Of a stretch of DNA of 39,151 nucleotides, positions 1-26,099 are shown one piece after another; position 1 is the first letter of the stretch; every line of letters starts with the position of its first letter. Source of the stretch: Chloroflexaceae bacterium (lineage in GTDB: Bacteria > Chloroflexota > Chloroflexia > Chloroflexales > Chloroflexaceae); contig JAAUTZ010000020.1 in the NCBI GenBank assembly GCA_012031225.1, forward strand, positions 1 through 39,151, given 5' to 3'. The notes under the pieces are model-generated. The model ran no database searches. It saw nothing but the letters and a program-made list of their open reading frames with translations, and was not told the DNA's origin. The translations under genes and the position numbers were made by a program.

Positions 1-2585
1 GTGTTCGTGGGCGTGGGATCAGCCGTCGGCGTGTTCGTCGGGGTCCCGTGTTCGTCGGGGTCCCCGTGTTCGTCGGGGTCGGAGTGAACACCGTCGCACT
101 GTCGCTATCGTTGGTGGCAACCGATACATTGCCTGCGGCATCTGTTGCCACCCCCGCTGCAATGCGGATCTGCAAACTCCCGCCACCGTTAATATCACTC
201 ACCAGCACCTCTGGCGAGCTACTCGTGCCATTCAACACACTCACTGTGCCAGTGGCAGTGCCCGTGCCAATCAAGGTTACATCAGCCACCGTTAGCGTAA
301 TCGTCAGCGCATTGGTGACGTTATCGGTGATACTGATCGGGAAGGTCACAGGATTTGTGCTAGTGGTACCCGGAAGCGGCGCAGCAATGGTGACACTAGG
401 CGGGGTGTTATCTATCGTATACGCTTCAGACGCAACAGGCAGCCCACGAATTGGGAGCGAGGCATCAAGATCAGTAATGAGCACCGCTTGCAGCGTGCCA
501 TCGCCCGTAACATCACTTGCCGTCAGGGTATATTGCGTATCGCTCCCACTCAAGCTAGCCAACGTAGCAGTGGCTGTGCCCGTACCCAACAGTTGAAAAT
601 CACTCAAGCTCAAGCCGGACAAGCTCTGGCTGAAGGTGATCGCCCACGTAACCGTCACGGCTTTGGTCGGGTCAGGAGCGGTGCGGGTGAAGCCCAGCAC
701 ATCGGCAATCGGATCATTGGTGAGAAAAAAGGAAGGTATGCCGCCGGAAGTGATGCCGCGTGCCCGTGCCCGCACCACATAGGTTCCAGCAAGGTTGCCC
801 GCTTTCAGGCTTGCCGTAGCTTGCCCGTCGCTCCCGATAGTCGCTAGTGTGGTAGGCGGGGCACTGCTTGGGCCCGTGTTGGGGCCAATAAACGACACGC
901 GCCCGCCCGTCACAGGCTGCCCTGCCAGCAGGGCCGTTACGGTGACGAAGAGCGGATCGGGAAACGGATCGTCAAAGAAGGCGGACTGCCCACTGCCCCC
1001 ACCGCTCTCAATGTTGAAGCCCTGCGCCTCATACGCCCCCAGATCCGTGATCGTATTGAAGCGACGCGGTAGATCAACCAGATCAATGTCTATGCTAGTT
1101 GCGCTGTTATCGCCAGTATCAATCGCAACCGAGCCGGGCAGCAGCCGATAGTCACCGGTAGTCGTGGGGGCACTCGTTGCACTGATTGGATTGGCAAACA
1201 GTGGGTTAACAAGTGGGTCAGTCCCATCCAGATTGCCCGTCCCCACGCCAGTCAAGTCAAAGTCTTGCACCAGCGTGTGGGCATAGCTCACCATCGGGGA
1301 ACCAAGGTCAGTCACTTGGGGATCATTCGCTTGGCTATCATTGCCCCAGATCAGCGTATTCGTATACGCTACCGTACCTGAGTTATTCCGGACTCCGCCG
1401 CCATTGCCTTCAGCGTAGTTACCCACAATCGTCGCATTGATCAATGTCGCCGCGCTATTGTTGTGGGCAACCCCCCCCCCCATTGCCCAGCGTGGCATTT
1501 CCGGCAACGAGCAGGTTGGTATACTGGGGCGAGCCGCCATTGTTGGAGATCCCGCCGCCGCCCGACTCTGCGGTGTTGCTGATGACGGTGGTATTGATAT
1601 AGATCTGGCTACCACTATTGTTGTAGATCCCGCCGCCCGTCGTGGCGTGATTCGAGTGTATGGTCACATAAGAAAAGAAGTTACTGCCGCCATTGTTGAA
1701 GATTGCCCCGCCGGGCGCATTGGCTGTGTTGCCGATCAAGGTCACATTGGTAAAAGCGTAGGTCGTGGACGTGCCTTGATTGAGGACACCACCACCGCCG
1801 TTCTCAGCCGTATTGTAGGCAATCAATATATCGGTAAAGCTCGGATTGCCGACGAAGTTGCGGATCCCGCCGCCCGTTCCGGCGGTGCGGTTGTAGGTGA
1901 CATCTACATCAGCCAAGCTCACGTTGCTAATGCTATTGTATATCCCACCCCCACCACTCACGGCAGAGTTGTAGGTGATGATGAGGTTGCTCAATTGGGC
2001 AAAGCTACTGCCGCCAGTGTAAATGCCGCCACCGATGTCACGGGACAAATCACTGCCACTAGCATTGCCCGCCGTGATGGTAAACCCATCGAGGATTGTT
2101 GAAACGGAATTGGCATTACTGGTGACAACGTGATAGGCATTATCGGCAATATTGCCGAAATCAGGCGTATCGTTCTGCTCCAAATCCCCGCTCAAGATCG
2201 TCACATTGGCGGCACTATCACGTTCACCAAGCGTCACTTCCGTACCCACAAAGCCGCCATACACGGCAACCCCGCTTTTCAAAGCAAAGGTGGCATCACG
2301 CGGATCGCTAGGGAGAACTACTAGTCCTTCGTTGGGGTAGTAGGTTCCCGCCGCCACCCAGATCTGTGCGCCCGCTTCGGCAACAGTCAAGGCCCGTTGC
2401 AACGTGCGGAACGCCTTCCCCCACGCGACACCGGTATTGCTATCATCACCCGCCAGAGCAACATAATAGACCACGCCAATCTGGGCGGCAGCAGGTGCAG
2501 GCGGTAACAGTATGCCCGCCCCAGCCCCTACCAGTGCCAGACCAACGCAGAGCCAACGCAAGAGATGCAGATTGAGTTGTCGCAT
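1..2585 (-). CDS. Secreted right-handed beta-helix protein, frameshifted, 3' end beyond window
   Basis: The start at 2585 gives a clear signal peptide (about 35 residues, MRQLNLHLL..., ending PAAAQ) and follows an AAGGGA ribosome binding site. The mature part has repeated Gly-Gly-Gly-Ile/Asn-rich turns typical of parallel beta-helices. The frame stops at 1455 just after a run of 11 G (plus-strand C, 1471-1481). With one G removed, the frame continues with the same beta-helix pattern, then a segment resembling a choice-of-anchor Q domain (DYRLLPGSVAIDTGD, around 1140), two beta-sandwich modules, and a Thr/Pro/Asn-rich linker running off the window. A second one-base slip is likely near 45. It is presumably exported and cell-surface associated; its ligand is unknown. 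Either the gene is phase-variable, or broken, or the run length was miscalled. Confidence 0.75.
31..80 (-). repeat. Short tandem repeat encoding a Thr-Pro-Thr-Asn linker
   Basis: Three copies of gtgttcgtcggggtc plus C bases occur at 31-47, 48-65 and 66-80. The first unit is 17 bases and the second 18; the missing C shifts the minus-strand frame from Thr/Pro/Asn to an Arg-rich sequence. The repeat codes for the extended linker typical of Chloroflexota surface proteins. Confidence 0.7.
1471..1481 (-). repeat. G11 homopolymer inside the beta-helix gene
   Basis: Eleven consecutive C on the plus strand (G on the coding strand). With 11 the frame hits a stop a few codons later; with 10 it continues as beta-helix sequence. 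Such tracts are classic sites of slipped-strand mispairing and also of sequencing miscalls. Confidence 0.85.
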
Positions 2586-2643
2586 GGTGTATTCCCTTAT
2601 TGATTGAGGCTCCCTACAATTGCCGTAGATCAAACGCCTTATC

Positions 2644-2672
2644 AGTATAGGCGAGGATATTCGCATTGTCTA
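2644..2672 (-). promoter_or_regulatory. Probable sigma-70-type promoter of the beta-helix gene
   Basis: On the minus strand there is TAGACA (2672-2667), a 17-base spacer, and TATACT (2649-2644). It lies about 60 bases upstream of the start codon at 2585. Match to consensus is seen in the sequence; activity is inferred. Confidence 0.5.
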
Positions 2673-2729
2673 GTGGGCAAAGTCATATGCAACCACCCGC
2701 TCCCCGCTCGCACCGTGCCCGGCAAGGCG

Positions 2730-2738
2730 TGGTATACT
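2730..2738 (+). promoter_or_regulatory. Possible extended -10 element upstream of ppk1
   Basis: TGGTATACT fits an extended -10 (TGn-TATACT), without a convincing -35. It lies about 115 bases before the chosen ppk1 start. Confidence 0.3.
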
Positions 2739-2853
2739 TGTCCCGTAAGCAACGATCTCACCCAATACAGGCAACAACTGGTTACAACGGTTATCTCGAT
2801 GTTACGGCTATGCTGATGTGGATACCAAGATAGACACCAGAGAGAAGGAGCCT

Positions 2854-5010
2854 ATGCCCACGCCGACCTTGAACCGCAGTACCTTTCATGCTTGCGCCCG
2901 CCCATCCAGCCCTAGTGCCCGCTACGTGAGCCGCGAATTGAGCTGGATTGACTTCAACCAGCGCGTACTCGAAGAAGCCTGCGATGAGCGCAACCCACTC
3001 CTCGAGCGCATCAAGTTTCTGTCTATTTTTGCTTCCAACCTTGATGAGTTCTTTATGATCCGGGTCAGCGGGATCAAGCAGCAGATTGAAGCCAATGTGC
3101 GGTCACTCTCAATTGATAGCCAAACCCCCGCCGAAACGCTCGCCGCAATCCGTCGGGCCCTGCTGCCGATCATCGCCCGCAAACGCGACCTGCTGATGGA
3201 CACCTTGATCCCCGCGCTTGATACAGCCGGCATTCACATCCTCAATTACGATCAACTCACGCCCGAGCAGCGCGACGTGATACAGGAGTATTTCGAGCAG
3301 TACGTCTTTCCGGTGCTGACCCCGCTTGCCTTTGATCCCGGCAATCACCCCGGCCACCCCTTCCCGCACATCTCCAACCTCAGCCTCAGCCTCGCCGTAG
3401 AGGTGCGCGGCGACGAAGGCTCGCTGTTTGCGCGGGTCAAAGTTCCCGAAGTGCTACCCCGTCTGGTGCAAGTGCCGAGTGCCATTCCGGCCACAAGCGA
3501 CGTGCCCACCGAGCGGCATAGCTCCTATGTCTGGATTGAGCAGATCATTGCGGCACACCTACCCACCCTTTTTCCGGGCTACGATATTGAAGAAGTGCAT
3601 CCGTTCCGCGTGATCCGCGATGCCGACATCGAGATCGAAGAGGACGAAGCCGATGACCTGCTCCAGACGATTGAGCAGAGCATCCGCCAACGCCGCTTTG
3701 GGGACGTGGTGCAGCTGGCTGTCGAAGCGGGCATGCCCGCACACATCCTTGATCTGCTGCTCCGCAACCTCAAGCTCACCGCCGATGATGTCTACAGCGT
3801 GCGGGGACCATTGGGACTAAGCGATATGATGAGCCTGATGGGCGTAGATCGCCCCGACCTGAAGGATACGCCGATCTTTCCGGGGGTTCCCGCGATTTTG
3901 CAGAGCGCACCCGATATGTTTGCCGCCATTCGCCAACAAGACATTCTGCTGCACCACCCCTACGATACCTTTGCCCCCGTCGTCAACTTCATCCAATCTG
4001 CCGCCGATGATCCCCACGTCCTCGCAATCAAGCAGACGCTCTACCGCGTCGGGCGCAATTCGCCTATCGTCGCCGCCCTGATGCACGCCCGCGAACAAGG
4101 CAAGCAAGTAACGGTGCTCGTGGAACTGAAAGCCCGCTTCGATGAGGAGAACAACATCACATGGGCCCGCGCCCTCGAACACGCAGGCGTGCATGTGGTG
4201 TACGGCTTGCCGGGCTTGAAGGTGCATGCCAAAGTCGCCCTTGTTGTCCGCAAAGAAGGCGACCAGATCATGCGCTACCTGCATCTCGGCACCGGCAACT
4301 ACAACGCCTCTACGGCCCGCCTCTACACCGATACCGGCTTGTTGACCTGCAACCCGCAGATGGGCGCGGATGTCTCGGAGCTATTTAATGTCCTGACGGG
4401 CTACAGCCGCCAGCGCAGCTACCGCAAACTGCTGGTTGCCCCCGTCACCCTGCGCGACGGTCTCGCCGCACTGATCCGGCGTGAGATTGCGTTGCATCAG
4501 CAGCACGGCAATGGGCATTTGATCTTCAAGTGCAATTCCTTGATTGATCCGGGCATGATTGACCTACTCTACGAAGCATCCCAAGCCGGCGTACAAGTGA
4601 ACTTGATTATTCGCGGCATGTGCTGCCTCCGCGCTGGCGTGCCAGAGCTGAGTGAGAACATCCGCGTGCGGAGCATCATCGGCCCTTTCCTTGAGCATCA
4701 CCGTATCTACTACTTCCACAACAATGGGCACGAGGAGATCTATATGGGCAGTGCCGACCTGATGCAGCGCAACCTTGATCGGCGCGTGGAAGTCGTGTTC
4801 CCGCTCCAAGACCCGATGCTGTTGCGCTTTGTGCGCGACGTGATGCTGGATCACTACCTCCACGATAACTACCGCGCCCGCGAACTCCAGCCCGATGGCG
4901 AGAACCTGCGCCTGCACCCAGCTAGCCCCGCCGAACGGATTGATAGCCAAGTGATCGAGATGGGCGCACACAATCTGCCGATCAATCCGGCAGGCAACGT
5001 GGGCCACTAG
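2854..5010 (+). CDS. ppk1: Polyphosphate kinase 1
   Basis: A 718-residue protein that reversibly transfers the ATP gamma phosphate to inorganic polyphosphate. The N-terminal motif RELSWIDFNQRVLEEA, the segment LASNLDEFF-like (ASNLDEFFMIRVSG) and the phospholipase-D-like C-terminal half are typical. The autophosphorylated histidine is H458 in GLKVHAK, and the second active-site histidine is H615 in FLEHHRIYYF; HLGTGNYN lies between them. The length suits the family (about 690-720). An open frame reaches back to a GTG at 2818, but the ATG at 2854 follows AGAAGGAG directly and is preferred. It is followed 83 bases later by a metal-exporting ATPase on the same strand; polyphosphate and metal export both serve metal tolerance, which makes co-expression plausible but unproven. 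Confidence 0.97.
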   Translation: MPTPTLNRSTFHACARPSSPSARYVSRELSWIDFNQRVLEEACDERNPLLERIKFLSIFASNLDEFFMIRVSGIKQQIEANVRSLSIDSQTPAETLAAIRRALLPIIARKRDLLMDTLIPALDTAGIHILNYDQLTPEQRDVIQEYFEQYVFPVLTPLAFDPGNHPGHPFPHISNLSLSLAVEVRGDEGSLFARVKVPEVLPRLVQVPSAIPATSDVPTERHSSYVWIEQIIAAHLPTLFPGYDIEEVHPFRVIRDADIEIEEDEADDLLQTIEQSIRQRRFGDVVQLAVEAGMPAHILDLLLRNLKLTADDVYSVRGPLGLSDMMSLMGVDRPDLKDTPIFPGVPAILQSAPDMFAAIRQQDILLHHPYDTFAPVVNFIQSAADDPHVLAIKQTLYRVGRNSPIVAALMHAREQGKQVTVLVELKARFDEENNITWARALEHAGVHVVYGLPGLKVHAKVALVVRKEGDQIMRYLHLGTGNYNASTARLYTDTGLLTCNPQMGADVSELFNVLTGYSRQRSYRKLLVAPVTLRDGLAALIRREIALHQQHGNGHLIFKCNSLIDPGMIDLLYEASQAGVQVNLIIRGMCCLRAGVPELSENIRVRSIIGPFLEHHRIYYFHNNGHEEIYMGSADLMQRNLDRRVEVVFPLQDPMLLRFVRDVMLDHYLHDNYRARELQPDGENLRLHPASPAERIDSQVIEMGAHNLPINPAGNVGH

Positions 5011-17361: not shown

Positions 17362-19575
17362 ATGAAAATACGCTCATTTGTATTGCTCGTTGTGCTTCTG
17401 CTGCCGCTGGTAGCAGCGTGTGGCGGTGGTGCAGCCCCTGCGCCCACACCTACCACCGAAGCCCCAGCCGCACCCGCCGCCACCGAAGCCCCAGCCGCCC
17501 CCGCCCCGCCCGCTAGCGGCACGGGCGATGCCACCGCCACCATTGATGGCGAGATCCGGCTCGGTCTCGTGACCGACATCGGGCGCGTCAATGATGGCAC
17601 ATTCAATCAATTCGCGCACGAAGGGGCAGTCAAAGTGTCCGAAGAATTCGGGCTAGAGTATCGCTTTATCGAAACCCAAAACCAAGCCGATTACCCCAAT
17701 AACCTTAGCACACTCGTAGATGAAGGCTTCAACGTGATTGTCACGGTGGGCTTCCTAATCGCCGATGCAACCTATGAGTATGCCCAAGAAAACCCAGATG
17801 TCGTCTTCATCGGGATTGACCAATCGTTCACAGGTGATCGGGCCCTGCCCAACCTTGTCGGCGTGCAGTTCCGCGAGGACGAAGGCGGCTTCTTGGCGGG
17901 TGCGCTGGCCGGGATGATGACCGAAACAGGCATCGTCGGGGTTGTCGGGGGGATTGACATTCCGCCCGTGAAACGCTTCCGCAACGCCTTCGACAACGCC
18001 ATAGCCTACATCAACCCGGATGCCACCTCGCTCGGCACGTACATCCCATCCTTCACCGATCCGGCGACTGGCGCAAGCACCGCCAATCAGTTCATCGGCG
18101 AAGGGGCCGATGTCATCATGGGTGCAGGTGGGCCTACCGGGAGTGGGGCAATTCGCGCCGCTGCCGAACAGGGCGTGTATGTGATTGGCGTGGATCAGGA
18201 CGAGTTCTTCACCACCTTTGGCGGCGGCACCACGCCCGGTGCAGATCGCCTGCTGACCAGTGCCACCAAGCGCGTAGATGTCGGCGTGTACGAAATGGTT
18301 AAAGATGTCGTGGACGGCGATTTTCAGGGCAACCGCGACTTCATCCTCAATGTGGCCAACGATGGCATTGGCTATGCGCCCTTCCACGGCACAGAGGATG
18401 AAATCCCTGCCGCCGCCAAAGCCCGCCTCGAAAGCATCCGCCAGATGCTCGCCGATGGCAGCCTGACAACGGGCGTTGATCCGGCAACTGGCGATCTTGA
18501 TCCGGCAACGATCCCCGCCCCCAATCCGTTCGATCCTGATGAAGAGCCTGCCGCCAGCACAGGCAGCACCGGACCTACCGCCGATGACCTCCGCATCGGG
18601 CTTGTCACCGACATCGGGCGCGTCAATGATGGCACGTTCAACCAATTCGCGCACGCGGGCGCAGTCAAAGCAGCCGACGAACTGGGCGTGGAGTATCGCT
18701 TCATCGAAACCCAGAACCAAGCCGACTATGCCGCCAATCTGGAAACCTTGCTCGAAGAAGACTTCAACGTGATCGTCACCGTTGGCTTCTTGATTGCGGA
18801 TGCCACCTATGCCGCTGCCGAAGCCAACCCAGAGGTCTTCTTCATCGGCGTAGATCAGGATTTCTCAGGAGATCGGGAACTGCCTAATCTGATCGGCGTA
18901 CAGTTCCGCGAAGATCAAGCAGGCTTCCTCGTTGGCACGCTGGCTGGCATGATGACCGAAACGGGCATCGTCGGCTTCATCGGCGGGATTGACATTCCGC
19001 CCGTGAAACGCTTCCGCGTCGGCTACGAAAACGGCGTGGCATTCATCAATCCAGATGCCCAAGTGCTGGGCACATACATCCCCTCCTTCACCGATCCGGC
19101 AGCAGGCGCAAGTGTCGCCAATCAGTTCATCGGCGAAGGCGCGGACATCATCTTCGGAGCCGGTGGGCCTACCGGCAGTGGCGCAATCAAAGCCGCCGCA
19201 GAGCAGGGCACATTCGTGATTGGCGTGGATCAGGATGAATACTTCACCACCTTTGGGGGAGGCACCTCGCCCGGCGCAAATCGGCTCATCAGCAGTGCCC
19301 TCAAGAGCGTTGACGTAGGCGTGTACAATCAGATCATCGCCATCGCCGACGGGAGCTTCACGGGCAATGGCAACTACATCCTGACGGTTGAGAATGGTGG
19401 GATCAGCTACGCGCCGTTCCACGATACTGAGGATGACATTCCGGCGGAAGTAGTGACCCGGTTGGAGGAGGTCAAAGCCACCCTTGCCGACGGATCCGTG
19501 ACAACGGGTGTTGATCCGGCAAGCGGCGATCTGGATGAGGCGACCATCCCTGAGCCACAGCCCTTCACCCGCTAG
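17362..19575 (+). CDS. Lipoprotein with two tandem BMP-family substrate-binding domains
   Basis: A 737-residue lipoprotein (lipobox LPLVAAC, then a Thr/Pro/Ala linker) preceded by AAGGAGG. Two complete BMP (PnrA/Med-like) domains follow one another with a 345-residue (1035-base) period: VTDIGRVNDGTFNQFAH begins at residue 70 and again at 415. Both copies keep the ligand-contact motifs GRVNDGTFNQ, GAGGPTGSGAI and IGVDQDE, and both end in TTGVDPA-GDLD. Typical BMP proteins are about 350-400 residues with one domain. Known members bind purine nucleosides for ABC import; the ligand here is not proven. The copies are very similar, so the duplication is relatively recent or homogenised. No ABC permease or ATPase gene is next to it. 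Confidence 0.95.
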   Translation: MKIRSFVLLVVLLLPLVAACGGGAAPAPTPTTEAPAAPAATEAPAAPAPPASGTGDATATIDGEIRLGLVTDIGRVNDGTFNQFAHEGAVKVSEEFGLEYRFIETQNQADYPNNLSTLVDEGFNVIVTVGFLIADATYEYAQENPDVVFIGIDQSFTGDRALPNLVGVQFREDEGGFLAGALAGMMTETGIVGVVGGIDIPPVKRFRNAFDNAIAYINPDATSLGTYIPSFTDPATGASTANQFIGEGADVIMGAGGPTGSGAIRAAAEQGVYVIGVDQDEFFTTFGGGTTPGADRLLTSATKRVDVGVYEMVKDVVDGDFQGNRDFILNVANDGIGYAPFHGTEDEIPAAAKARLESIRQMLADGSLTTGVDPATGDLDPATIPAPNPFDPDEEPAASTGSTGPTADDLRIGLVTDIGRVNDGTFNQFAHAGAVKAADELGVEYRFIETQNQADYAANLETLLEEDFNVIVTVGFLIADATYAAAEANPEVFFIGVDQDFSGDRELPNLIGVQFREDQAGFLVGTLAGMMTETGIVGFIGGIDIPPVKRFRVGYENGVAFINPDAQVLGTYIPSFTDPAAGASVANQFIGEGADIIFGAGGPTGSGAIKAAAEQGTFVIGVDQDEYFTTFGGGTSPGANRLISSALKSVDVGVYNQIIAIADGSFTGNGNYILTVENGGISYAPFHDTEDDIPAEVVTRLEEVKATLADGSVTTGVDPASGDLDEATIPEPQPFTR

Positions 19576-19701: not shown

Positions 19702-19801
19702 AGGTGAAGTGCAAACTATTGGAGGTCACGTCCACGCTGGCATCCTATTGGCTATTGGCATTGAAGCCAGAGCAATCATCCCCGAAAGGAACAAGAAATC
19801 T

Positions 19802-20287
19802 ATGCATACAAACATTGGATTGACGCAAGAACAGAGTGATGGTGTCCACACGATCCTGCGCCGTGTACTCGCCGATACCTATGTCCTGTATACCAAAACC
19901 CGCAACTACCACTGGAACGTCACCGGTATGCATTTCCAAACCTTGCACGATATGTTTGAGGAGCAGTACACCGCCCTCGAAACAGTGATTGACGATACCG
20001 CCGAACGCATTCGCGCCATTGGCCCCTATGCCATTGGCACGCTCGAAGAGTTCAGCGAATTCACCACCCTCAGCGAGCATCCCGGCAGCTATCCGAGTGC
20101 TACCACGATGGTGCAGAATCTCGTCACCGACTATGAGCAGATCATCCGCCAGCTGCGCGACGATGTAGATGCCTGTGCTGAGCAGTACCACGATCAAGGC
20201 ACCGCCGATTTCCTCACTGGCTTGATGGAACAAAACGAGAAGACCGCGTGGATGCTGCGGGCCCTTGCCACCGAAGTAGCCGCATAA
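19802..20287 (+). CDS. dps: Dps-type DNA-binding ferritin-like protein
   Basis: A 161-residue protein, the usual Dps size. Ferroxidase-site ligands are seen in NYHWNVTGMHF and LHDMFEEQY, followed by the helical segment AERIRAIG. Dps dodecamers oxidise and store iron using hydrogen peroxide and protect DNA in starvation. The frame is open back to 19709, but the ATG at 19802 begins where the family begins and follows AAAGGA at somewhat long spacing. It stands alone between two hairpins and has its own promoter-like element. Confidence 0.95.
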   Translation: MHTNIGLTQEQSDGVHTILRRVLADTYVLYTKTRNYHWNVTGMHFQTLHDMFEEQYTALETVIDDTAERIRAIGPYAIGTLEEFSEFTTLSEHPGSYPSATTMVQNLVTDYEQIIRQLRDDVDACAEQYHDQGTADFLTGLMEQNEKTAWMLRALATEVAA

Positions 20288-20368: not shown

Positions 20369-20428
20369 TTGGCCATGTAGCCCGAGACCCAGCCAACGAC
20401 ACACTGATACAATTCGCAAGGGAGAGGT

Positions 20429-23400
20429 ATGTTCATCGTTTCGTCTACTGCTGCGGCTGGTGCTGGCTCATTGCGCGAGGCACTCGCAACTGCCCCCGAT
20501 AATGCCACTATCCTGATTACCGTCAGTGGGACGATTACGCTCGATACACCGCTCATCTGTCAGCACAGCATTACCCTACAGGGGATGTCGCACGAGAGCC
20601 TGACAATCAGTGGCGCAACACAGGTGCGCATCTTCGAGATTGCAGCCCACGCTACGGTATCGCTGCACAGCCTGACATTGTGCGATGGCTATGCGGAGCA
20701 GGGCGGGGCAATCCTCAATCGGGGTACGCTCCACCTCAGCGATTGTGTCCTGCATCACAACGTCGCCGACGAGGGCGGCGCAATCGCCAATTTCGGCACC
20801 CTCCAGATGCAGCAGTGCCACCTGCACCACAATCACGCGGCGAGGAACACACGCGGGGGCGGGGCGATGGTAGCGATGCCAGAGAGTAGCACCACGATCA
20901 GCCAGAGCCACTTCTCAGCCAATTTCAGTGCGGGCTATGGTGGGGCCATCCTCAGCAATGCCACGCTCCAAATCAGCAGCACCACCTTCAGCACCAATCA
21001 GGCCCACCATAGCGGCGGCGCGATCCGCCAGCAGCAAGGCATCCTGCACCTCGAACGCTGCGCCTTGCACGCCAATCACGCCAGTGCCGGCGGTGCGCTC
21101 TGGCTGCAACCAAGCTGCACCGCAAGCCTCAACGAGAGCCTGTTTGAGCAGAACTACGCCGAGCGGTTGCCCGCCAGTACGTGGAACCACCCCAACGGCG
21201 GCGCGATCTGGAACAATGGCGGCAGTGTAGAGGTGCTCGGCTGTACCTTTGCGGGCAACCACGCCGAGCGCAACAGTGGGGCAATCCACACCCGCGATTT
21301 CCACCACTCCAGTAGCCTGCTGATCTGCAACAGCACCTTCAGCGCAAACTCTGCCGGACGCAGCGGCGGGGTCCTGTGCAACTACGGCAGCACCGAGATT
21401 ATCACCAGCACCCTTGTCCAGAACCATGCCCACCAAAACGGGGGCGGCATCGTCAATGGCGCACGCGGGCAGCTCCACCTATTCGGTACGATCCTTACTG
21501 ATAACCACGCCGCCCACAGCCAGAATGCGAGCGGCATCCTGACTTCACGCGGCTACAATCTGCTCGAGGCGGCTGACCCGCAAGGCTATACCCTCAAGGG
21601 TGAGCTTGACACCAACCTAAGCGGCGACCCCCAGCTTGGCAGCCTGCGTGATAACGGTGGCCCAACGCCGACGCTTGCGCCCAAGCCGACTAGTCCTGTA
21701 ATCAATGTGATCCCACCCCAAACGTGGGCAATGTCTACCGACCAACGCGGGCACGAACGCCCCTCAACCCATGCGTGGTGTGTCGGTGCGGTGCAGCTCA
21801 CCGCGCTCGAAGCCCCCCGCCTGCGTCTGCCTAACCCAACTGTATCGGACAGTGTGGCAGCCTCTGCTGCTTATTTAGGAGCCTCGCCTATGTTTGAGCC
21901 ATACCCGCGTGCGCTCGACCTGCCCCCCGCCAATCTTGCCCACGAGCTGCGCCAAGCTATCGAGCACGATGCGTTTCGGCTGATCTACCAGCCCGTGGTG
22001 CAGATCCACAGTGGGCAACCATTTGCTTTTACGACCTTCCTGCGCTGGGAGCACCCGAAGTGGGGCATCCTTATGCCTGAGGTGGTGCTAACACTGGCAC
22101 GAATGTACGGGATGTCGCGCCACGTTGATCATTGGGTGATGCAGCAGGTGGTGCAGCAAGCCGCAGCGTGGCAGCTGCACGGTGGCACCCCCCTGATCAG
22201 CTTTCACCTCGCGCCGGAGACGCTGCACGACGATAACATCATCCGCGAACTCGACCTGCTTTTTGCTACGCACGGTATATCCGGCTCGCAATTCCTGATC
22301 GAAGTCTCGGCCCCATTGCTGCCCACCGATCCCAACACACTGGAAACGATTGCAGCTGTGATGGCAGGCATTCAGCAACTCCTCTGTGGGGTTGCCCTCG
22401 ATCAGGTGAATGGCTCAACCCCGCTTGCCATCCTGCGCCGCCTCCCGCTGGATGCCCTGCTGCTTGACCGCACCTGTGTCAGCAATCTGCACAACGACCT
22501 GAATGCGGCAGCCGTGATTCAGACCCTGATCAGCTTCGCCCACAATCAAGGCATCCCGCCAATCATCACCGGCATCGAGCAATCCAGCCAACTCGAATGG
22601 CTGATGCTGCTCGGCTGCGAGTATGGGCAGGGCTATCATTTTGCACGCCCACTTGCCGCTGCCGAGCTACACCTTGACGCGGGCTATGGGCACGTTATTA
22701 CCGCCGCCCGCACCCTCTTTGCACCGTTTGAAGAGTTTGACACAACCCCGTTTGAGCTATTCGCCGATCCGTACATCGAGCAGCAGTCGTCGTCTGCCCC
22801 CATCATCACCCCGATTGGCAAAGGCTATATGGCTTCCCCTTTCCCGCGTGACCTGAGCGATAGCGATGCGGTGCTGATTGGGTATCGCCAAGAGATTGCC
22901 CAAGCCGCGCACTACCTCGATCACAACTTATCGGTGCTGATTACCTGCGATAAAGCTCTGGTCGAGCGGCTTGCCTACCACATCATCGAACACTCCGCCA
23001 AGACAGCCGTCTTTGCCGATGATCCCGTATCGCTCGATGAGGACGATACCAGCAACCGCGAAGCCCTTGCCGATCTGATTAGCAAGATGAAGCCCTCACA
23101 GGCTCTCGTGCTGCACCACCTCGATCTCGTCGTGGATAACCGCCCTGACTGGCCCCTGATTAACACCGCGCGCTCCTTAGTAGCCCTGTTCTACCGCAAG
23201 CAGCGCAACCCCCCAACCCTGCTGGCATTTGCCGATCCATCGCTGAATATCCCGCGTATCTTGCGCGAACGTTTCAACGTGCAACTCGAACTAGGTGGCA
23301 TTCACCGCGAAACGATCACGCAGCTGGTCACGTCCCGAGAACGGGATCGCTTTGATCGCTTCAGCGAGGGCGCACTGTTCAAACACGTTGCCGAGATGAA

Positions 23401-24400
23401 TGTGATTCAGTTTCGCACCGCCATGCGCTTCCTCGCCCAGAGCAGCATCGGCGTTGAGCCAAGCTACCGCCTGTTGCAACAGTTGCAGCCCTTCCGCCGC
23501 GACACACGCACCCAGATCGAAATCCCCGATGTCACCTTTGATGCGATTGGGGGCTATAACAATGTCAAGCAGCAGGTGTTCGAGGCGATTGAGTTGATCA
23601 CTGGGCGACCTGTACCCTACGCCCCTGATGGCACACCACTCTCGGCGCAGGCCCAGCAACTCCTCGCCGAAATCCTGCCGGAAACACCCGATGAGCGCGA
23701 ACTGCGCCGCAAGCTGGCTCCGCGTGGGCTGATCTTCTATGGCCCCCCCGGCACCGGCAAGACGCTGTTTGCCAAAGCCATTGCCAATGTGATGCAGGCA
23801 ACCTTCCAACTCATCAGTGGGCCTGAGATTATGTCCAAGTGGATTGGCGAGAGCGAGGGCAACTTGCGCCAGATCTTCGCCACCGCCCGCCGCAACGCGC
23901 CCGCCGTGATCCTGTTCGATGAGTTTGATAGCATTGCCGGCAAACGGAGCGGCTTCAACGATAGTGGCAGCCGCGAGATGAATGCCGTTGTATCGCAACT
24001 CCTGACCGAACTCGATGGCTTTCAAGAGGATCAAGAGATTCTTGTCATCGGCACAACCAACCGCCTCGATATGATTGACAAAGCCCTGCTGCGCCCCTCA
24101 CGGCTCCAACCGATTGCCATCGGGCTACCAGACAAAACCGCCCGCCGCCAGATCGCCGCTATCCATCTGGGCACATTTCAGGTGGAGCTGCCCAACGAGG
24201 AGTTGCTGGATATGCTTGCAGAGCGTACCGAAGGCTTCAGCGGCGATGAGGTGCGGGCAATCATTCAGGGGGTTGCACGGCGGGCCCGGCGCGGAGAGCC
24301 AGTGGATCGAGAGACCTTCTACACCCAGCTGGATCGCGTGCAGAAGTTCCACCAAGAACACCACCGCCTACGCCTCGATAATGAGGATATGGTGCATTAG
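20429..24400 (+). CDS. Beta-helix / degenerate EAL / AAA+ ATPase chimera
   Basis: A 1323-residue uninterrupted frame after GGGAGAGG. Residues 1-460 are a right-handed beta-helix with repeated GGAI/GGGI turns and a choice-of-anchor-like end, but no signal peptide. Residues 505-742 are an EAL fold whose catalytic motifs are lost (TFLRWEHP for EALLRW, ALDQVNGST for DDFGTG, LLDRT for KID), so c-di-GMP cleavage is unlikely. Residues 815-1000 look like an AAA+ half without a Walker A. Residues 1030-1323 are a Cdc48/VAT-like AAA+ module with Walker A GPPGTGKT (1105-1112), Walker B ILFDEF (D1164, E1165), sensor Asn in GTTNR and Arg-finger RPSR. It could be a cytoplasmic remodelling ATPase with binding and signal-sensing domains; this is inference. 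M488 at 21890 is a possible internal start. Confidence 0.9.
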   Translation: MFIVSSTAAAGAGSLREALATAPDNATILITVSGTITLDTPLICQHSITLQGMSHESLTISGATQVRIFEIAAHATVSLHSLTLCDGYAEQGGAILNRGTLHLSDCVLHHNVADEGGAIANFGTLQMQQCHLHHNHAARNTRGGGAMVAMPESSTTISQSHFSANFSAGYGGAILSNATLQISSTTFSTNQAHHSGGAIRQQQGILHLERCALHANHASAGGALWLQPSCTASLNESLFEQNYAERLPASTWNHPNGGAIWNNGGSVEVLGCTFAGNHAERNSGAIHTRDFHHSSSLLICNSTFSANSAGRSGGVLCNYGSTEIITSTLVQNHAHQNGGGIVNGARGQLHLFGTILTDNHAAHSQNASGILTSRGYNLLEAADPQGYTLKGELDTNLSGDPQLGSLRDNGGPTPTLAPKPTSPVINVIPPQTWAMSTDQRGHERPSTHAWCVGAVQLTALEAPRLRLPNPTVSDSVAASAAYLGASPMFEPYPRALDLPPANLAHELRQAIEHDAFRLIYQPVVQIHSGQPFAFTTFLRWEHPKWGILMPEVVLTLARMYGMSRHVDHWVMQQVVQQAAAWQLHGGTPLISFHLAPETLHDDNIIRELDLLFATHGISGSQFLIEVSAPLLPTDPNTLETIAAVMAGIQQLLCGVALDQVNGSTPLAILRRLPLDALLLDRTCVSNLHNDLNAAAVIQTLISFAHNQGIPPIITGIEQSSQLEWLMLLGCEYGQGYHFARPLAAAELHLDAGYGHVITAARTLFAPFEEFDTTPFELFADPYIEQQSSSAPIITPIGKGYMASPFPRDLSDSDAVLIGYRQEIAQAAHYLDHNLSVLITCDKALVERLAYHIIEHSAKTAVFADDPVSLDEDDTSNREALADLISKMKPSQALVLHHLDLVVDNRPDWPLINTARSLVALFYRKQRNPPTLLAFADPSLNIPRILRERFNVQLELGGIHRETITQLVTSRERDRFDRFSEGALFKHVAEMNVIQFRTAMRFLAQSSIGVEPSYRLLQQLQPFRRDTRTQIEIPDVTFDAIGGYNNVKQQVFEAIELITGRPVPYAPDGTPLSAQAQQLLAEILPETPDERELRRKLAPRGLIFYGPPGTGKTLFAKAIANVMQATFQLISGPEIMSKWIGESEGNLRQIFATARRNAPAVILFDEFDSIAGKRSGFNDSGSREMNAVVSQLLTELDGFQEDQEILVIGTTNRLDMIDKALLRPSRLQPIAIGLPDKTARRQIAAIHLGTFQVELPNEELLDMLAERTEGFSGDEVRAIIQGVARRARRGEPVDRETFYTQLDRVQKFHQEHHRLRLDNEDMVH
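21877..21892 (+). promoter_or_regulatory. Internal ribosome binding site and ATG at the beta-helix/EAL junction
   Basis: AGGAG (21877-21881), 8 bases, then an in-frame ATG (21890, residue 488). This is as good as most start sites in the window and lies exactly between the beta-helix and EAL domains. It could yield a separate EAL-AAA+ product of 836 residues. Confidence 0.5.
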
Positions 24401-24495: not shown

Positions 24496-26099
24496 ATGAC
24501 TGAACCTATGACTGACGCTACACTCGCCCACGCCGTTGCCCAACGGCGGACCTTTGCGATCATCTCGCACCCCGATGCAGGTAAAACGACGCTCACCGAG
24601 AAGCTCCTGCTCTATGCCGATGCCATTGATCTGGCCGGCGCGGTGCGTACCCGCAAACACCAACGCCACGCCACCTCAGACTGGATGGCAATGGAGCGTG
24701 AACGGGGTATCTCGATCACCTCAACCGTGCTGCAATTCAGCTTTCAAGAGCATCATTTCAACTTGCTCGATACGCCCGGACACCAAGACTTCAGCGAGGA
24801 TACCTATCGCACACTCATGGCTGTAGATAGCGCAGTGATGGTGCTGGATGTCGCTAAAGGCATCGAAGCCCAGACCCGCAAGCTATTTGAGGTATGTCGG
24901 TTACGCCAGATTCCGATCCTCACTTTTATCAACAAGCTCGACCACACCGGCATTGATCCGCTTGAGCTACTGGATGAGATTGAGCGCACGTTGCAGATCA
25001 GTGCCGTTCCGCTTAACTGGCCCATCGGCAACGGGAGCGACTTTCAGGGCGTGTACGATGTCACCCGCCACGAAGTGCTCCGCTTCACCCGTACCACGCA
25101 CGGGCAACACCGTGCCCCAGTACAAGTCACCGATATTACGGACCCGGCCCTGAGTACCCTGATCGGCGAAGCGGCAGCACAACGTCTGCGCGATGAGATT
25201 GACCTGCTCGCAGGGGCAGGCAGCACCTTCGATCTTGATGCGTTCCTCGCAGGCGCAATGACACCAGTCTTTTTGGCAGTGCGCTGAACAACTTCGGCGT
25301 TGAGCCGTTTCTGCACGCGCTGCAATATCTTGCCCCACCCCCCAACGCACGCCTCAGTGATCGCGGCTTGATTGACCCGATTGAGGAACCATTTTCGGGC
25401 TTCGTGTTCAAAATCCAAGCAAATATGGACCCCCTGCACCGCGACTGCATGGCGTTCATTCGGGTTTGCTCTGGGCGGTTCATCAAAGATATGCAGGTGT
25501 ATCACCCGCGCCTTGAGCGCACCATCAGGATGACTCGCCCGCACCGCGTCTTTGCCCGTGAACGCGAAACCGTGCAGGAAGCCGTGCCGGGCGATGTGAT
25601 CGGCGTAACTAATCCGGGCTTGTTTATGATTGGGGATACCTTGTGCAGTGGGCAGCCATTGCGCTATGATGCCATTCCGCGCTTCCCCCCAGAGAGCTTT
25701 GCGGTCTTACGCAACAACAACATTGCCCGCTACAAGCAATTTACCAAAGGGCTAGAGCAACTCGAAGCAGAAGGCGTGATCCAGATCCTCTACGAGGCGA
25801 CGAGCCTGCGACAGGAGCCAATCCTCGCGGCTGTTGGCGATCTCCAATTCGATGTCGTGCAAGCCCGCATGCATAGCGAATATGGCACCGAGACCACGCT
25901 CGAACGGCTGGCGTTTGTGTGTGCGCGGTGGGTGAACGGGACCCCGGCTGCACTAGCGCGCATGTACTTGCCTAGCCGGGTTGTAGCCGCCCGTGATCGG
26001 CACGGGGCCATGGTTGTTCTGTTCCCGTCCGAATGGGATCGGGAATACTGCATCCGCGAGAACCCCAATCTTGAGTTTACGGAGCGGGGCACGCTATAG
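24496..26099 (+). CDS. prfC: Peptide chain release factor 3, frameshifted as sequenced
   Basis: A translational GTPase that recycles release factors 1 and 2 after termination. The first part (24496-25287) has the P-loop [31 protein letters not shown], switch [10 protein letters not shown] and NKLD. The frame then stops because the segment near 25269-25273 has five T; with six T it reads [17 protein letters not shown] and runs on through [14 protein letters not shown] to 26099. The joined protein would be 534 residues, the normal RF3 length, and no other defect is visible. The break may be a read error or a real recent mutation, since RF3 is dispensable in several bacteria. The start codon has only a weak ribosome binding site. 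Confidence 0.9.

Follow-up and report, generated by a model that had tools for sequence, protein, structure and literature searches.

A predicted inactive EAL domain and a beta-helix fused to an AAA+ ATPase related to those of conflict systems in Chloroflexaceae

The window analyzed here, a 39,151-nucleotide stretch of a Chloroflexaceae genome (contig JAAUTZ010000020.1), contains a single open frame that runs on the forward strand from an ATG at 20429 to a stop codon ending at 24400 and encodes a protein of 1323 amino acids (aa). A domain search of the full protein returned the EAL (aa 506-741) and AAA (aa 1101-1227) families of Pfam and the choice-of-anchor Q family of NCBIfam (aa 400-456). 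The features of the gene and its upstream flank are as follows:

19709..20287, forward strand: Dps/ferritin-like gene (PF00210), directly upstream of the fusion gene and also adjoining its EAL-D1-D2 relative in G011, a genome of another genus
20418..20427, forward strand: Shine-Dalgarno-like AAGGGAGAGG, just 5' of the fusion start codon; the equivalent in the same-genus genome G001 is AAGGAAG
20429..24400, forward strand: fusion gene; predicted order beta-helix, choice-of-anchor Q, inactive EAL, P-loop-less D1 module, active AAA+ D2
20429..21613, forward strand: right-handed parallel beta-helix, aa 1 to ~395, beginning at the initiator Met (model, fold matches and motif spacing)
21626..21796, forward strand: choice-of-anchor Q domain, aa 400-456 (NCBIfam NF041518, E 1e-13)
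21944..22651, forward strand: EAL domain, aa 506-741, predicted to be catalytically dead (PF00563, E 1.6e-52; fold matches to EAL structures)
22031..22045, forward strand: TTFLR replacing the ExLxR signature, aa 535-539 (alignment with EAL relatives)
22853..23515, forward strand: D1, conserved P-loop-less module, aa ~809-1029, a predicted inactive AAA domain common to ternary-system ATPases
23729..24109, forward strand: D2, putative active AAA+ core, aa 1101-1227 (PF00004, E 1.4e-41)
23741..23764, forward strand: Walker A GPPGTGKT, aa 1105-1112, invariant in the family
23909..23929, forward strand: Walker B ILFDEFD, aa 1161-1167, with DEFD invariant in the family

The fusion gene is surrounded in the window by genes for polyphosphate kinase, TGT, Bmp-type binding proteins, Dps, RF3 and an efflux system. 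Upstream, one frame (17362-19575, forward strand) holds a tandem pair of Bmp/PnrA substrate-binding stretches; in G011, several tblastn pieces that overlap one another span the matching region. Downstream, a scan for promoters and terminators gave nothing beyond chance, and one base missing from a T run breaks RF3 (prfC) into two frames (24496-25287 and 25368-26099, forward strand). A programmed frameshift was rejected for this gene, because the run in G001 is one T longer and the gene is intact there; the window split is thus a recent single-base loss or an assembly error.

A sequence-only reading of the window had proposed a single-frame chimera of beta-helix, EAL and AAA+ parts, and comparison with G001 (an uncultured Chloroflexales of the same genus; contig CALCJV010000003.1, a separate assembly) established it as a genuine one-chain fusion. 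The G001 homologue is also 1323 aa long, with identical architecture, and it aligns over its full length with zero gaps and 90% identity; the neighboring genes, their order and the start region of the fusion gene are conserved as well. The dN/dS ratio between the two genomes was 0.14 overall and ranged by segment from 0.04 to 0.26, with values of 0.21 for the beta-helix, 0.22 for the EAL domain, 0.05 for D1 and 0.04 for D2. Purifying selection acts on every segment, most strongly on D1-D2 and more weakly on the N-terminal parts, and the EAL domain evolves fastest (82% identity, compared to 95-97% for D1-D2). The gap-free homologue and the dN/dS ratios together rule out a join of genes by assembly or indel error and indicate constraint on all parts. 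Nor are homologues always found as two genes, since G001 and G011 both carry fusions. The parts, and the ATPase as such, all belong to known kinds, but the combination of beta-helix, EAL and AAA+ is new, and our literature searches found no description of EAL-AAA+ fusions.

The description of the N-terminal part as a secreted-type beta-helix lacking a signal peptide also held. Residues 1 to ~360 were modeled as repeated short strands in a solenoid (to aa 358), in a prediction that drew on two sequences only and had a pTM of 0.62 and low pLDDT. Among the Foldseek matches listed for this N-terminal model, most were right-handed beta-helix enzymes and tailspikes, three matches having E <= 1e-3, and GGA-type motifs recur in the region with a spacing of ~25 residues. 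The Met start lies at the beta-helix itself, and no signal peptide, transmembrane segment or hydrophobic leader was seen in the fusion protein. Elsewhere in the genome, a paralogue carries a signal-like leader ahead of the same beta-helix start motif, GSLRxA. The window protein thus shares with secreted choice-of-anchor Q proteins the beta-helix, the NF041518 domain and, through this paralogue, the GSLRxA start, yet it differs from them in having no signal peptide and in carrying cytoplasmic domains C-terminal to the beta-helix. On the reverse strand at one end of the window (2-2666), a beta-helix gene of the secreted type (ORF 1455-2666) seems to continue in another frame (ORF 2-1615), which suggests a second frame break in the contig.

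The EAL domain is whole, and its Foldseek matches include the EAL domain of BifA (TM normalized by target, 0.89). The "c-di-GMP-type EAL fold" of the sequence-only reading was therefore sound as to the fold, but that reading had missed the loss of the active site. At six positions where active-looking relatives have E, N, E, D, K and E, the window protein has T535, H593, A628, Q659, L678 and T714; it retains R539, E625, D658, E717 and Q734. The metal and catalytic set of active EAL domains (E, N, E, D, D, K, E) is thus incomplete in the window protein, which in this respect departs from the c-di-GMP phosphodiesterases that it otherwise resembles in domain and fold. In the G011 domain, too, the N, second E, second D and EGxE glutamate are gone, so catalysis was probably lost before the window and G011 lineages split. 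With six sites lost and ExLxR replaced by TTFLR, turnover of c-di-GMP by the window EAL domain is very unlikely, judging from these residues, and binding of c-di-GMP is unlikely.

The C-terminal D2 domain has the motifs expected of a working ATPase, with its sensor motif (GTTNR) and arginine motif (RPSRL) intact alongside Walker A and B and with a pore segment, KWIGESE, that we take to be Cdc48/katanin-like. Its closest solved structures are Cdc48, p97 and VAT. The best AAA models of NCBIfam were those of PAN and Cdc48, both far below their cut-offs (for CDC48, a score of 200 against a cut-off of 803), and PADLOC matches to IetA and TRIP13 were set aside as reflecting the common AAA domain only. 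The label "p97/Cdc48-like ATPase" consequently fits the catalytic domain D2, but not a protein with tandem active AAA domains: a single P-loop AAA domain follows a P-loop-less module, and Pfam found only one AAA stretch and no match to the Cdc48 N-domain in the fusion protein. The protein also differs from the FtsH protease with its C-terminal HEXXH zinc protease domain: no peptidase match was found, and the chain terminates soon after the AAA lid.

The P-loop-less module D1, ~220 residues between the EAL domain and D2 that the sequence-only reading had passed over, is 38-57% identical to its homologues outside the genus. Unlike the D1 domain of Cdc48-type proteins, it shows no detectable sequence similarity to AAA: profile-profile alignment to AAA domains fell short of significance and scored no better than reversed controls, a profile search of the PDB gave no match, and in the AF2 model the region is mostly below pLDDT 50, with only two sequences covering it. 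A profile search with D1 found D1-D2 relatives in 10 of the 41 family genomes. No others turned up among 158 class genomes or a sample of 400 phylum genomes, nor did any in viral contigs or plasmids. In seven of the ten genomes the D1-D2 frames lack EAL, a short N-terminal region taking its place, and are ~550-730 aa long. At seven of the eight EAL-less loci the adjacent gene encodes a MoxR protein scoring ~246-251 bits to bpMoxR (PF20030), whereas most of the remaining MoxR-type matches in these genomes score ~44-50 bits; at the eighth (G013) the MoxR gene is on a different contig and the ATPase is close to a contig end. In G016, G024 and G006 the ATPase contig also carries genes for fvmX2 or fvmX7 ("FtsH ternary system domain"), and effector genes of the CHAT or EAD2 type lie near the ATPase in G013 and G024. 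In the G006 ternary system, the genes for MoxR and the D1-D2 ATPase flank one of the PD-(D/E)XK family (PF13366; L059:10929-11429).

This arrangement recalls the ATPase ("FtsH") component by which Kaur et al. (2020, PMC7159879) define the FtsH-vWA-MoxR ternary conflict systems and which has an inactive first AAA domain without P-loop and Walker B, an active second one and sometimes an extra N-terminal domain found only there. By sequence, the window D1-D2 region is homologous to the ATPases encoded beside ternary-type MoxR in related Chloroflexales, being 50-55% identical to homologues in such clusters and 67% identical to the EAL-bearing form of G011, and it has the same order of a P-loop-less D1 followed by one active, classical AAA+ domain. 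The prediction that D1 is an inactive AAA domain draws on the description by Kaur et al., the homology and the gene context. Unlike the ternary-system component, however, the window protein has no MoxR, vWA or fvm genes next to it, and the short N-terminal region has been swapped for an EAL domain (G011) or for a beta-helix and EAL (window). Searches of the window genome, G001 and G011 found no high-scoring bpMoxR or fvmX2, but only ordinary MoxR matches of ~44-50 bits; this counts for less in G001 and G011, which are 86-88% complete. The window ATPase thus stands alone, outside the predicted immune gene clusters in which ATPases like it otherwise occur.

In G011 the EAL-D1-D2 protein has no beta-helix, and its gene adjoins the same Dps and Bmp genes; on the opposite flank (L053:3-1769 and 2121-3180), where the window has RF3, the genes look like those for hydrogenase maturation (HypA/HypB/HypF-like, by eye only). 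A tree with Cdc48 and FtsH outgroups placed the three EAL-bearing proteins in one clade (97/100), so that the EAL domain most likely joined D1-D2 once. With Cdc48 as the only outgroup, the EAL-bearing branch was unresolved and the eight EAL-less proteins grouped weakly (82/78). A phylum search with fvmX2 for outgroup ternary systems gave one match over the cut-off, from the same family. By these trees the EAL form may have arisen from the ternary form or the reverse, and the beta-helix may be either a later gain in the window genus or a loss in G011.

AAA+ proteins of the D2 type act as hexamers that thread or remodel their clients. The explanation that we favor, with some reserve, is that the fusion protein is a cytoplasmic hexameric remodeler, derived from or sister to a conflict-system ATPase, in which the N-terminus has been replaced by the inactive EAL domain and the beta-helix as binding surfaces. 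In such an assembly, D2 would hydrolyze ATP and pull on or remodel bound proteins, D1 would form a non-hydrolyzing ring, and the EAL domain and beta-helix would project on the D1 side and recruit the client. Candidate clients are invader proteins, met by inactive decoy domains, or surface and filament functions to be regulated, both of which are possible. The earlier proposal of a cytoplasmic remodeler with the beta-helix as a binding surface is reasonable for a single-chain fusion that appears cytoplasmic by sequence and has a seemingly intact AAA+ motor. Its further element, control by an EAL sensor domain, fared worse: the loss of the six sites and of ExLxR leaves direct control of the fusion protein by c-di-GMP unsupported.

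It is nonetheless conceivable, if doubtful, that the degenerate EAL domain is a c-di-GMP-binding switch that turns the ATPase on or off, much as FimX acts on a pilus ATPase and PopA in ClpXP-dependent degradation. Degenerate EAL domains can serve as receptors, as in FimX and LapD, and like these the window protein carries a non-catalytic EAL domain in a multidomain chain; the G011 relative keeps an intact ExLxR (EVLVR), and the window protein itself retains R539, E625, D658, E717 and Q734. Several further EAL proteins are encoded in the genome, some with intact sites, so c-di-GMP signaling is likely present. However, ExLxR is broken in both the window (TTFLR) and G001 (TTLLR), and according to a review this motif determines whether inactive EAL domains bind c-di-GMP; CsrD/MshH, with an altered motif, is listed there as non-binding (PMC10333796). 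The loss of six EAL sites and the fast evolution of the domain relative to D1-D2 also speak against a gate. The EAL domain is joined directly to AAA+ rather than to the GGDEF or membrane parts of FimX/LapD-type receptors. By analogy with CsrD or YdiV, the EAL domain of the window genus probably serves as a protein-binding scaffold and not to sense c-di-GMP; that of G011 could at best be a c-di-GMP receptor.

Another reading, which we also rate as improbable, is a special case of the favored remodeler with the client named: a solitary anti-invader ATPase, in which cellular systems supplied the models for two decoys, the inactive EAL domain and the beta-helix without a signal peptide. These would bind invader proteins that target the active versions, and the AAA+ motor would then extract or disassemble the captured proteins. 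The D1-D2 relatives are linked to conflict systems, the genome encodes both intact-site EAL proteins and the beta-helix paralogue with a signal-like leader, and decoy domains fit the published logic of related systems (Kaur et al.). Yet the gene has housekeeping neighbors (TGT, Dps, RF3) and is not part of a defense island, it has no MoxR/vWA partners, and its place beside Dps is kept across two genera, unlike most mobile defense genes. We rate as similarly improbable the suggestion that the protein is a one-protein offshoot of a multi-gene conflict system, in which a surface-type beta-helix and a catalytically dead version of a second-messenger enzyme serve as bait on an AAA+ disassembly motor. 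Finally, although frame breaks do occur elsewhere in the contig, as in RF3 directly downstream, an assembly artefact or a decaying fusion of two or three genes is extremely improbable given the gap-free 1323-aa homologue in a separate assembly, the low dN/dS, the conserved start region and the EAL-D1-D2 fusion of a third genome (G011).

The cytoplasmic remodeler that we favor places a conflict-system ATPase family outside its gene cluster, with differing N-terminal recognition domains. It also predicts that the EAL domain of G011 may bind c-di-GMP and that of the window protein should not. The living relatives form a series, from a short N-terminal region to a dead EAL domain and to a dead EAL domain with a beta-helix, that bears on how AAA+ machines are re-targeted.
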